This document shows positions 13,325 to 16,812 of a stretch of DNA of 32,874 nt, one piece after another. The notes beneath the pieces were generated by a model. The model was not told the origin of the DNA and searched no databases. It was given only the letters and a program-made list of their open reading frames with translations. This DNA is from Alphaproteobacteria bacterium (GTDB taxonomy: Bacteria; Pseudomonadota; Alphaproteobacteria; UBA9219; RGZA01): assembly GCA_033762625.1 (NCBI GenBank), contig JANRLI010000001.1, forward strand, positions 1 through 32,874, given 5' to 3'. The translations under genes and the position numbers were made by a program. Each line of letters opens with the position of its first letter. Within the stretch, counting starts at the first letter, position 1.

Positions 13325-14974
13325 TTAATTCGATTGGCGACGCAGGAATGCGGGGATTTCCAGCGTTTCTTCTTCCGAAGAAAGACGCGGACGATCCGAT
13401 GCATTCACGCCCAATTCTTTAGCGGGGGATTGGGAAGTTTGTTCAGCGGGCGCTGCTGGCACATCACGCTTGCCGCCAAACTCAGCGATGCGCGCAAAAA
13501 GCGAGCTGCTGCGCTTCGTGTTTTGTTTTTCATTCGGCTGCACGAAAGCAGCTTGCTGCTGTGGTTGTTGTGCCTGTGGGAATTGCGGCTGTGATTGACC
13601 AAAGGAAATGGATGCTGGTGGCTGAACAGGCTGGGGTGCTTGCTGTTGTTCAGCGGCAGTTGCCTGGTTCATGATGCTTTCAGCCTGCTTTGCGCGTTCC
13701 AGCAATTGGTCCAGCGCAGCGCTTTGCGATGTTACCGTTTGCTGCTGGGGTTGTTTTGGCGCGCCCCAGGTAAAGGGTGACGAGAAAGAAGGTTGCGGTG
13801 CCGCAGGTGCTTGTTGCTGCTGTTGCTGTGGTGCCGGATTATAGAATGAAGCCTGTTGTTGTGGCTGCACCTTTTGCGCCTGTTGTTGTGCCGCAATCGG
13901 GGCTGTGAAACCGGAATTGAACGACGCTTGTTGTGGAGCTTCGGGTGCGCGGAATTTGGATGTGTTTAAACCGGCCATGCCCACTGCCTGGCTGCGCGGC
14001 ATTTCAGCGGCGGTATCAATACCTGTAGCCACAACGGAAACGCGCATGCGGCCATCCATCTTTTCTTCAAAGGTTGAACCAAAGATGATGTTTGCATCGG
14101 GGTCAACTTCTTCGCGGATGCGGTTGGCTGCTTCATCAACCTCAAACAGGGTCATGTCATACCCGCCAGTGATGTTGATGAGCACACCGCGTGCCCCCTT
14201 CATGGAGACATCATCAAGTAATGGGTTGGCAATTGCCGCTTCGGCTGCATTCACGCTGCGCTTGTCGCCGGTTGCTTCGCCGGTGCCCATCATTGCTTTG
14301 CCCATTTCACTCATCACGGAGCGGATATCAGCAAAGTCGAGGTTAATCAAACCAGGCATAACCATCAAATCGGTCACGCCGCGAACGCCGGAATGCAATA
14401 CTTCGTCAGCCATGCGGAATGCATCCGCAAAGGTTGTTTTTTCATTGGCAATTCTGAACAGGTTTTGGTTTGGAATGATGATGAGCGTATCCACATATTG
14501 CTGCAATTCGGCAATACCGGCTTCCGCCATACGCATGCGGTGTGAACCTTCAAAGTGGAATGGTTTGGTTACAACGCCAACGGTCAAAATGCCATGTTCG
14601 CGTGCGGCTCTGGCAATCACGGGCGCTGCGCCAGTACCCGTGCCGCCGCCCATACCGGCGGTGATGAAGGCCATGTTGGTGCCTTCTAGGTAAGCGTTGA
14701 TTTCATCAATTTGTTCTTCAGCAGATGCGCGGCCCACATCCGGTTTCGCGCCAGCGCCAAGGCCGCGTGTCAGGTTTACGCCAAGCTGCAATTTACGCTC
14801 GGATAAATTGCTGGAAAGTGCCTGCGCATCGGAATTGGCAACCACAAATTCAACGCCTTCCAGATTGGAGCGGATCATGTTGTTGACCGCATTGCCACCT
14901 GCGCCGCCAACACCAAAAACGGTGATGCGTGGGCGAAGCTGGGTTTGCATTTCTGGAACTGTAATTTGAATCAT
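13325..14974 (-). CDS. ftsZ: Cell division protein FtsZ (tubulin-like GTPase)
   Basis: Polymerises at midcell into the Z ring that recruits the divisome. The 549-residue protein has [10 protein letters not shown] at 21-30, the tubulin signature GGGTGTG at 109-115, the T7 synergy loop [10 protein letters not shown] at 211-220 and a globular core ending near 325. A roughly 200-residue Gln/Pro/Ala-rich linker follows, with a short predicted helix (about 418-443) and a conserved-looking [10 protein letters not shown] at 491-500. The C-terminal peptide [12 protein letters not shown] (538-549) is the FtsA/partner-binding tail. Unlike its neighbours it is cut off from ftsA by a gene on the other strand, so it needs its own promoter in 14975-15223. 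An AGGGA lies ten bases before the ATG. Confidence 0.98.
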
Positions 14975-15223
14975 TGTGATTAATCCCTAGGTTGAATTAG
15001 GCGTTTGGATAAGTGTTTGAATCTGTATCGGGAAGGCTAAGCCGCGGCTCGGATTCGAAGCAAGGCCAAATCAACTGATTTGCGTAATGATTGGCGGAAA
15101 TCCTTAATAGATTGGCCATCCGGCGGTATTTTTATGGCAAGATCATCGGGGGCATGTTTTGGCACAGAATATGCTTCTATCCCTATGCGCATCCGTTGAT
15201 GGATGTGCGTGAAGGAGACGGGT
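14975..15223. other. Divergent control region of ftsZ and the small plus-strand gene
   Basis: 249 bp between two divergent starts. It holds a DnaA-like box with one mismatch (minus strand TTATCCAAA, 15004-15012), a perfect 10-bp palindrome AGCCGCGGCT (15040-15049) and the sigma-54-like element at 15160-15175. No convincing -35/-10 pair for ftsZ could be picked by eye, although one must exist because ftsZ is isolated from the ftsA operon. Confidence 0.5.
15160..15175 (+). promoter_or_regulatory. Sigma-54-like -24/-12 promoter element
   Basis: TGGCAC-AGAAT-ATGCT matches the RpoN consensus TGGCAC-N5-TTGCW except at one base, and keeps the invariant GG and GC ten bases apart (15161-15162 and 15173-15174). 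It points at the small gene starting 49 bp downstream, leaving room for a short leader. Binding sites for an enhancer-binding activator were not identified. Confidence 0.45.
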
Positions 15224-15544
15224 ATGAGCAGTGCGATTTCGGGCTTAAGCAGCTATTTTCCTGGGCAAAGCGTCGGCCAGACCGTTAACTTAACGTCAGC
15301 CAAAAAGGATAAAGGCCAGACAGATCCTGCCGAGGAGCTGGTAAAATATTCCCAGATGTCGGCGGCAGACAAAATCCGCTATCAGTACCTTCGTGCGCAT
15401 AACCTCACTGAAGACGACTTAACAGCCATGTCGCCCAAGGTGCGTGCAGATATTGAAAAGAAGATTTCCGAAGAAATTAGACGGGCCATGGATAAGCACG
15501 GCAATACAACCCCGATTGGCTTCAATCTGAATATCACTGCTTAA
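15224..15544 (+). CDS. Small protein of unknown function, inserted between ftsZ and ftsA
   Basis: A 106-residue protein beginning MSSAISGL. The start is set by a strong Shine-Dalgarno AAGGAG (15212-15217) six bases before the ATG, the best in this window. Residues 1-30 are Ser/Gly/Gln-rich and probably flexible; 35-90 form a charged helical segment including DPAEELVKYSQMSAADKIR, a LTEDDLTAMSP turn and DIEKKISEEIRRAM. This helix-LTEDDL-helix pattern recurs, from memory, in small uncharacterised alphaproteobacterial proteins; I cannot name a family. There is no signal peptide, membrane segment or cysteine. It runs against the dcw cluster and its last 4 bp overlap the ftsA stop tail to tail. A sigma-54-like element lies upstream, so a link to motility or another RpoN-controlled process is possible but inferred. 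Confidence 0.8.
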   Translation: MSSAISGLSSYFPGQSVGQTVNLTSAKKDKGQTDPAEELVKYSQMSAADKIRYQYLRAHNLTEDDLTAMSPKVRADIEKKISEEIRRAMDKHGNTTPIGFNLNITA

Positions 15545-16812
15545 ATCGCGTTGCGCAGCCAGCCACCAATGCGGTCAAAGAACCCTTGGCTCGCGCTCAA
15601 ATCCTGACCAAAGCGCGGCATGCCGGCGATGGGGTTGGTGGTGTATGCAAGTAATCCCGCAATCGTCGCAAAGGCAGGGCCTGACGCATTATCGCTTAGA
15701 CCTTGCAAACGATAGGGGCGGCCAATGCGTACTTGCTTATCCAGAATGCGCTGCGCCATTTCACGAATGCCCGGTAATTGACATGCGCCGCCCGTTAAAA
15801 CAACGCGGCGGTTTATCGCAACGCTGCCTTCTGCCGCCTTCAAACGGTCGCGCAGATGTTCAAATGTTTCTTCAAGGCGTGGCCCGATAATCCGGATAAG
15901 ATGGGATTTTGGAATGTGGTTGGCATGTTCGGGTGCTTCTTCGCCGACCTGTGGCACATCAATCATCTCGCGTTCATCGGATGAGCTGGAAAGTGCATTG
16001 CCGAATAATGTTTTTAAACGCTCCGCATGATTGACGGGCGTTGTTAACCCGCGCGCAATATCATTGGTGACATGCATGCCGCCAATCGGAATACTATCGG
16101 CATGCACCATTTGCTTGTCATTGAATAGGGCAAAGGTGGTTGTGCCGCCGCCCATATCAATCAGCGTCGCGCCCAATTCCATTTCATCATCCACAAGGCA
16201 GGCAAGGCCACTGGCAAAAGGTGAAACCACCACATGCTCGACCTGTAAATGACAGCGTTGTAGGGCAGAGAGCAGGGTACGGATAGGTGCATAATGCGCC
16301 GACACCATATGCAGCTTGGCATTCAAATTATCGCCAATCATACCGCGCGGGTCACGGATGCCGTTTTGTCCATCAATTGAAAAATCAGTGGGAACAAGAT
16401 GAATAAGCTCCGATCCTTCCGGCAGACTTTCCTGCTGGCCGATTGCCAGTGCGCGTTCAATATCATAATCGCTGGCTTCGCGGCCATTCAGATTGATGTG
16501 AATATCGGCGTGATGTGAAACTAGTTTTCCACCGGAAAAATTTACAATCACGCGGCTGATTTTTTCGCCGGCAACTTCTTCGGCGTTATCCAATGTTGCG
16601 TTTATCGCATTTTGTGCGGCTTCCACATCCACGATGTTGCCACCTTTTACGCCTTGGGAAATATGATGGCCGATACCGATAACCCGTGTACCGCCTTCGG
16701 CCGTGGTGCGCGCGATGAAACAGCAGATTTTGCTCGAGCCAATGTCCAGCGCGGCCAAAATATCCCCTTTGCCGTTGGAGCGTTTGCGGGTGGCTGAATT
16801 ATCATTGGTCAT
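15541..16812 (-). CDS. ftsA: Cell division protein FtsA (actin-like membrane anchor of FtsZ)
   Basis: Actin-fold ATPase that tethers FtsZ to the membrane and recruits later divisome proteins. The 423-residue protein has phosphate-1 DIGSSK at 23-28, the SHS2 subdomain 1C insertion (about 95-170), phosphate-2 IDMGGGT at 218-224 and an adenosine motif LTGG at 339-342. The last residues, from about 410 (GFFDRIGGWLRNAI), are the amphipathic membrane-targeting helix. It is the last gene of the long dcw operon, 23 bp after ftsQ. Its stop overlaps that of the plus-strand small gene by 4 bp, leaving no terminator between them. Confidence 0.96.
   Translation of the reverse strand: MTNDNSATRKRSNGKGDILAALDIGSSKICCFIARTTAEGGTRVIGIGHHISQGVKGGNIVDVEAAQNAINATLDNAEEVAGEKISRVIVNFSGGKLVSHHADIHINLNGREASDYDIERALAIGQQESLPEGSELIHLVPTDFSIDGQNGIRDPRGMIGDNLNAKLHMVSAHYAPIRTLLSALQRCHLQVEHVVVSPFASGLACLVDDEMELGATLIDMGGGTTTFALFNDKQMVHADSIPIGGMHVTNDIARGLTTPVNHAERLKTLFGNALSSSSDEREMIDVPQVGEEAPEHANHIPKSHLIRIIGPRLEETFEHLRDRLKAAEGSVAINRRVVLTGGACQLPGIREMAQRILDKQVRIGRPYRLQGLSDNASGPAFATIAGLLAYTTNPIAGMPRFGQDLSASQGFFDRIGGWLRNAI

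Follow-up and report, generated by a model that had tools for sequence, protein, structure and literature searches.

The 32,874-nucleotide stretch of alphaproteobacterial DNA that we analyzed (the window) carries on its minus strand a dcw cluster of Mur and Fts genes, including ftsA, ftsZ, and lpxC, as assigned by Pfam. Seated between ftsZ (13325 to 14974) and ftsA (15541 to 16812) is an open reading frame of 106 codons plus stop, which runs on the plus strand from an ATG at 15224 to a TAA at 15544. A gap of 249 bp separates it from the divergent ftsZ, and its stop codon overlaps that of the convergent ftsA by 4 bp (TTAA), as the original prediction had stated. The Shine-Dalgarno sequence AAGGAG, at 15213 to 15218 on the plus strand, has six contiguous matches and is, as predicted, the strongest among the 19 window genes compared, the other 18 having at most four; an alternative in-frame start at 15203 would lengthen the frame, but the Shine-Dalgarno sequence favors 15224. 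The encoded protein is 79% identical to its nearest relative, with 14, 11, and 38 differences at codon positions 1, 2, and 3, respectively, and homologues were found in 25 GTDB families of alphaproteobacteria. These comparisons show that the frame is coding, and the small gene that opposes ftsZ and ftsA is real.

Upstream of the gene lies TGGCACAGAATATGCT, at 15160 to 15175 on the plus strand (TGGCAC-AGAAT-ATGCT), which shows the GG-N10-GC spacing and corresponds to the TGGCAC-N5-ATGCT element that had been proposed as a sigma-54 promoter. Five sigma-54-like sites were scored in the window; this one scored best and is the only one lying in an intergenic region directly ahead of a gene. From its position, a sigma-54 transcript is predicted to start near 15185 to 15186, with a leader of about 38 nt. 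The lack of an rpoN gene would have counted against this reading; the window's genome (2.23 Mb in 26 contigs) has one rpoN, so that objection fails. Transcription from a sigma-70 promoter would likewise have spoken against it, and no sigma-70-type promoter was seen in the interval from 14900 to 15800. A further block, GCAAGGCCAAATCA, which contains the near-palindrome CAAATCAACTGATTTG, is conserved at 15057 to 15085, approximately 80 to 100 bp before the sigma-54-like promoter, and is a candidate activator-binding site or, alternatively, a candidate control site for ftsZ.

The original prediction had described the product as an unknown helical protein, and our searches and structural model agree with this description. 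Scans of the 106-amino-acid protein against Pfam and NCBIfam gave no family match, and scans of 34 members of the family gave weak, scattered matches among the best 25 families listed, with equally weak ones from PHROGs. A PDB sequence search matched a designed protein over a short stretch of 18 residues (E value of 3e-5), its other matches being chance ones; fold searches with the full model and with the core gave nothing below an E value of 0.001, and a VIA-align comparison over 21 chains reached a best Z score of 3.2. No description of the family was found in literature searches. By these searches, the family is undescribed and has no Pfam or NCBIfam model. Residues 1 to 34 are predicted to be disordered and residues 35 to 93 to form a helical core, followed by a tail ending in NLNITA. 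In the AlphaFold2 model, residues 1 to 30 are of low confidence and helices span residues 35 to 44, 47 to 58, 63 to 68, and 71 to 93, with a mean pLDDT of 67.6 for the whole protein and 82 for the core alone. Across the family, a variable N terminus precedes a core of about 60 residues, EFL.YM..SPAERIR..YLK.HNLTEEDLAAMSPEERA.IE..I...I, and the C terminus fits [DNS][LIVM]x[AV] in 17 of 47 members, compared with 1% of long open reading frames in the fetched loci.

Whole-genome searches recovered relatives of 79% and approximately 37% identity in two congeners, in both cases between ftsZ and ftsA, and more distant relatives elsewhere. With a profile built from 34 members, the family was detected in 44 of the 385 alphaproteobacterial genomes sampled, with a single location in every positive genome except one; of the 33 genomes of the order, 9 had been positive with an earlier 12-row profile. 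Five members entered as weak matches (E values of about 1e-5 to 1e-10) and are less certain relatives. A weak second match in the window's own genome, on contig C26, lies inside a TPR protein and appears to be a chance match. In one genome, G234, two diverged family members stand in tandem after a single sigma-54-like site (L121:9267-10012).

For each of 47 members, the region scored for sigma-54 sites began 150 bp ahead of the open frame and reached as far as the core; the matrix was set from the general sigma-54 consensus and not fitted to the scored sequences. These regions were long (240 to 790 bp) and unequal between members. A score of at least 11, a cut-off picked after inspection of the table, was found upstream of 40 of the 47 members, from 19 of the 25 GTDB families. 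Independently of the cut-off, 31 of the 47 outscored every window of equal length elsewhere in their own locus, and 39 fell below 5% in this comparison, where about 2 would be expected. The rule by which start codons were chosen made use of promoter position, so the spacing between the -12 element and the assigned start, mostly 27 to 58 nt (median, 45 nt), is not fully independent. Among the remaining members, G115, G139, G144, and G313 keep GG-N10-GC at 38 to 60 nt with weaker flanks, the site in G144 being no better than its control windows. In G234, the apparent failure concerns the second gene of the tandem pair; TGGCATGTCGATTGCT lies about 40 nt before the first. No convincing sigma-54 site was found upstream of the members in G046 and G075. 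Rhizobium and Agrobacterium members mostly do not have a site, and those examined had none at the right place, which speaks for the link with flagella; sigma-54 is not known to control the flagella of rhizobia.

These data show that the promoter is a conserved feature of the family, whatever its genomic location. They also bear on whether the site before the 106-amino-acid gene is a chance match, with the gene expressed from an ordinary promoter. The motif is short, and the pattern TGGCAYNNNNNWTGCW has 21 matches in the whole genome, mostly inside genes, against 3 for a reversed-pattern control. However, chance would have to account for a site retained in most members at a similar distance and, in the three congeners, for TTTGGCA and TGCTTCT being identical when their surroundings have diverged, and we regard it as very improbable. 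The sigma-54 reading of the promoter is strongly supported by these sequence comparisons.

The original prediction had also proposed that transcription of the gene would collide with that of ftsA and so join division to motility. A sigma-54 transcript running antisense into ftsA, or a promoter interfering with ftsZ, could in principle act as such a switch: the two genes converge with a 4-bp overlap, no terminator-like site was found between 14900 and 15800, and the location is kept in three congeners. The ftsZ-ftsA neighborhood is, however, limited to these three (the window's genome, G002, and G001), and the overlap is replaced by an 18-bp gap in G002 and by a gap of about 700 bp with another open reading frame in G001. 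Elsewhere the gene lies away from ftsA, at unrelated sites, and yet the promoter and the protein are kept; the neighbors there include rlmN-like, chloride-channel-like, dnaX-like, and ispD/dus-like genes (named by eye). The absence of the overlap from both congeners, together with the other locations, argues that a cis effect on ftsA is not a conserved function, and we consider a switch coupling division to motility highly unlikely. A local cis effect on ftsA may exist in the window's species. The placement between ftsZ and ftsA seems to be a local accident, genus specific and without conserved function. Nor did orthologues usually lie near flagellar genes, the other location that had been suggested: a flagellar gene, encoding a FlgE-like hook protein in G334, was next door in 1 of about 20 neighborhoods inspected. 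In G001, the open reading frame that separates the family gene from ftsA (L006:784-1185) is helix-turn-helix and antitoxin-like.

The distribution of the family did point to motility. All 44 family-positive genomes of the class have fliG, compared with 228 of the 385 genomes overall (p = 1.5e-11); the association was also seen among near-complete genomes only (p = 4.8e-10) and in a count by genus (p = 3.5e-8), the last being the only one of these values that takes kinship into account. The rpoN gene is present in 293 of the 385 genomes and in 43 of the 44 positives, the exception being a 78% complete draft. In the sample from the order, one family-positive draft, G029 (79% complete), had no fliG match. 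Thus, among the alphaproteobacterial genomes checked, the family was found almost only where flagellum genes occur. The converse does not hold: about 19% of FliG-positive genomes show a detectable member, and 24 of the 33 genomes of the order have no family match, despite the presence of fliG and rpoN in nearly all of these genomes. A family found in about one in five flagellated genomes is either accessory or fast diverging, and it is not a core flagellar part.

In the window's genome, sigma-54-like sites of the same class and at the right distance precede flgE-flgK-flgL, a 479-amino-acid protein, a GGDEF protein, and a response regulator; a weaker one precedes rpoN. The genome encodes three strong sigma-54 activators, one of which is FlbD-like and directly follows a fliF-fliG pair, before an flhA-like gene (fliG was named by Pfam; fliF, flhA, and the FlbD likeness were named by eye). 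In Caulobacter, FlbD and RpoN activate hook and flagellin genes (PMC3930126). We sought an activator site common to flgE and the 106-amino-acid gene and found no clear shared element. The site before the 228-amino-acid GGDEF protein is strong (TGGCACAGTGCTTGCA, 56 nt upstream; G000:C13:88770, L145:5771-6523), which suggests that a c-di-GMP enzyme belongs to the same regulon. That before the 479-amino-acid protein is also strong and lies 39 nt upstream (G000:C2:68871, L144:5399-6872); the protein has no Pfam match and is possibly a hook-length (FliK-like) protein. About 21 nt ahead of rpoN stands TGGAACAATTCTTGCA (L001:2982-3016, G000:C5), hinting at autoregulation.

The tie to RpoN and motility contained in the original prediction gains support from the family-wide conservation of the promoter, from the near restriction to flagellated genomes, and from the promoter class of flgE. 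We asked how well the same data fit a sigma-54 gene of another program, such as nitrogen, c-di-GMP, or surface life, controlled by an NtrC-type or other activator and linked with flagella through shared lifestyle or ancestry. The two other activators in the genome, and the sites before the GGDEF protein and the response regulator, would fit such a program. The presence of fliG in every positive genome, a tighter link than that with rpoN itself, and the shared promoter class of flgE argue against it, and we judge it unlikely, with perhaps one chance in several of being right. We consider it probable that the family belongs to the sigma-54 flagellar program, is transcribed at the hook stage, and is an accessory to flagellar assembly, its seat between ftsZ and ftsA being specific to the genus. 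Against this reading we count the patchy occurrence among FliG-positive genomes, the single flagellar neighborhood, the failure to find an activator site in common with flgE, the lack of a fold or family match telling function, the other regulons served by sigma-54, and the two further activators.

The gene, its family, the conservation of the promoter, and the co-occurrence with flagella are shown by the sequences compared. Building on these, RNA polymerase with RpoN would transcribe the 106-amino-acid gene together with the hook-stage genes, the most likely activator being the FlbD-like protein encoded in the flagellar cluster. The product, with a predicted disordered N terminus and four-helix core, would probably assist flagellar assembly as an export-linked, chaperone-like, or checkpoint protein, roles that fit its size, disorder, and putative timing. 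More speculatively, and in our view doubtfully, it might be a flagellar checkpoint protein in alphaproteobacteria without FliA and FlgM. Such a protein would be synthesized at hook time, would then be retained or exported, and would target RpoN, FlbD, or the export gate; its C-terminal tail would serve as a docking or degradation signal.

These observations add an undescribed protein family, spread over 25 GTDB families, to what is likely a sigma-54 flagellar program; orphan genes of this kind cannot be found through gene neighborhood. An unannotated member is present in Azospirillum brasilense Sp7 (NZ_CP012915.1:949035-949349, L147) behind TTGCACAAAACTTGCT; it lies on the minus strand of plasmid p1, with its start near 949349. 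An rpoN mutant of this strain lacks both kinds of flagella (PMC12826043). The near-consensus promoter of the Sp7 member makes the sigma-54 flagellar idea directly testable.

Three known systems invite comparison. FlgM, the anti-sigma-28 factor and exported checkpoint protein, has about 100 amino acids, a disordered N terminus, and a helical C terminus. The window protein resembles it in size, in this layout, and in flagellar context but showed no sequence match to the FlgM family at E values up to 10. Caulobacter does not use FliA (PMC3930126), and homologues of FliA and FlgM are absent from Azospirillum (PMC12826043), so that FlgM would lack its usual target there. FliX, the partner of FlbD in Caulobacter, is likewise small, alphaproteobacterial, and linked to sigma-54 flagellar genes; however, FliX is an early gene (PMC3930126), and the window protein matches no Pfam family, FliX included. 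Compared with the sigma-54/FlbD hook-stage genes of the Caulobacter type, the window gene is an orphan outside flagellar clusters, encodes an unfamiliar protein, and occurs patchily, but it shares with them the TGGCAY-N5-WTGCW promoter, the flagellated hosts, and an FlbD-like activator in the fliF-fliG cluster.
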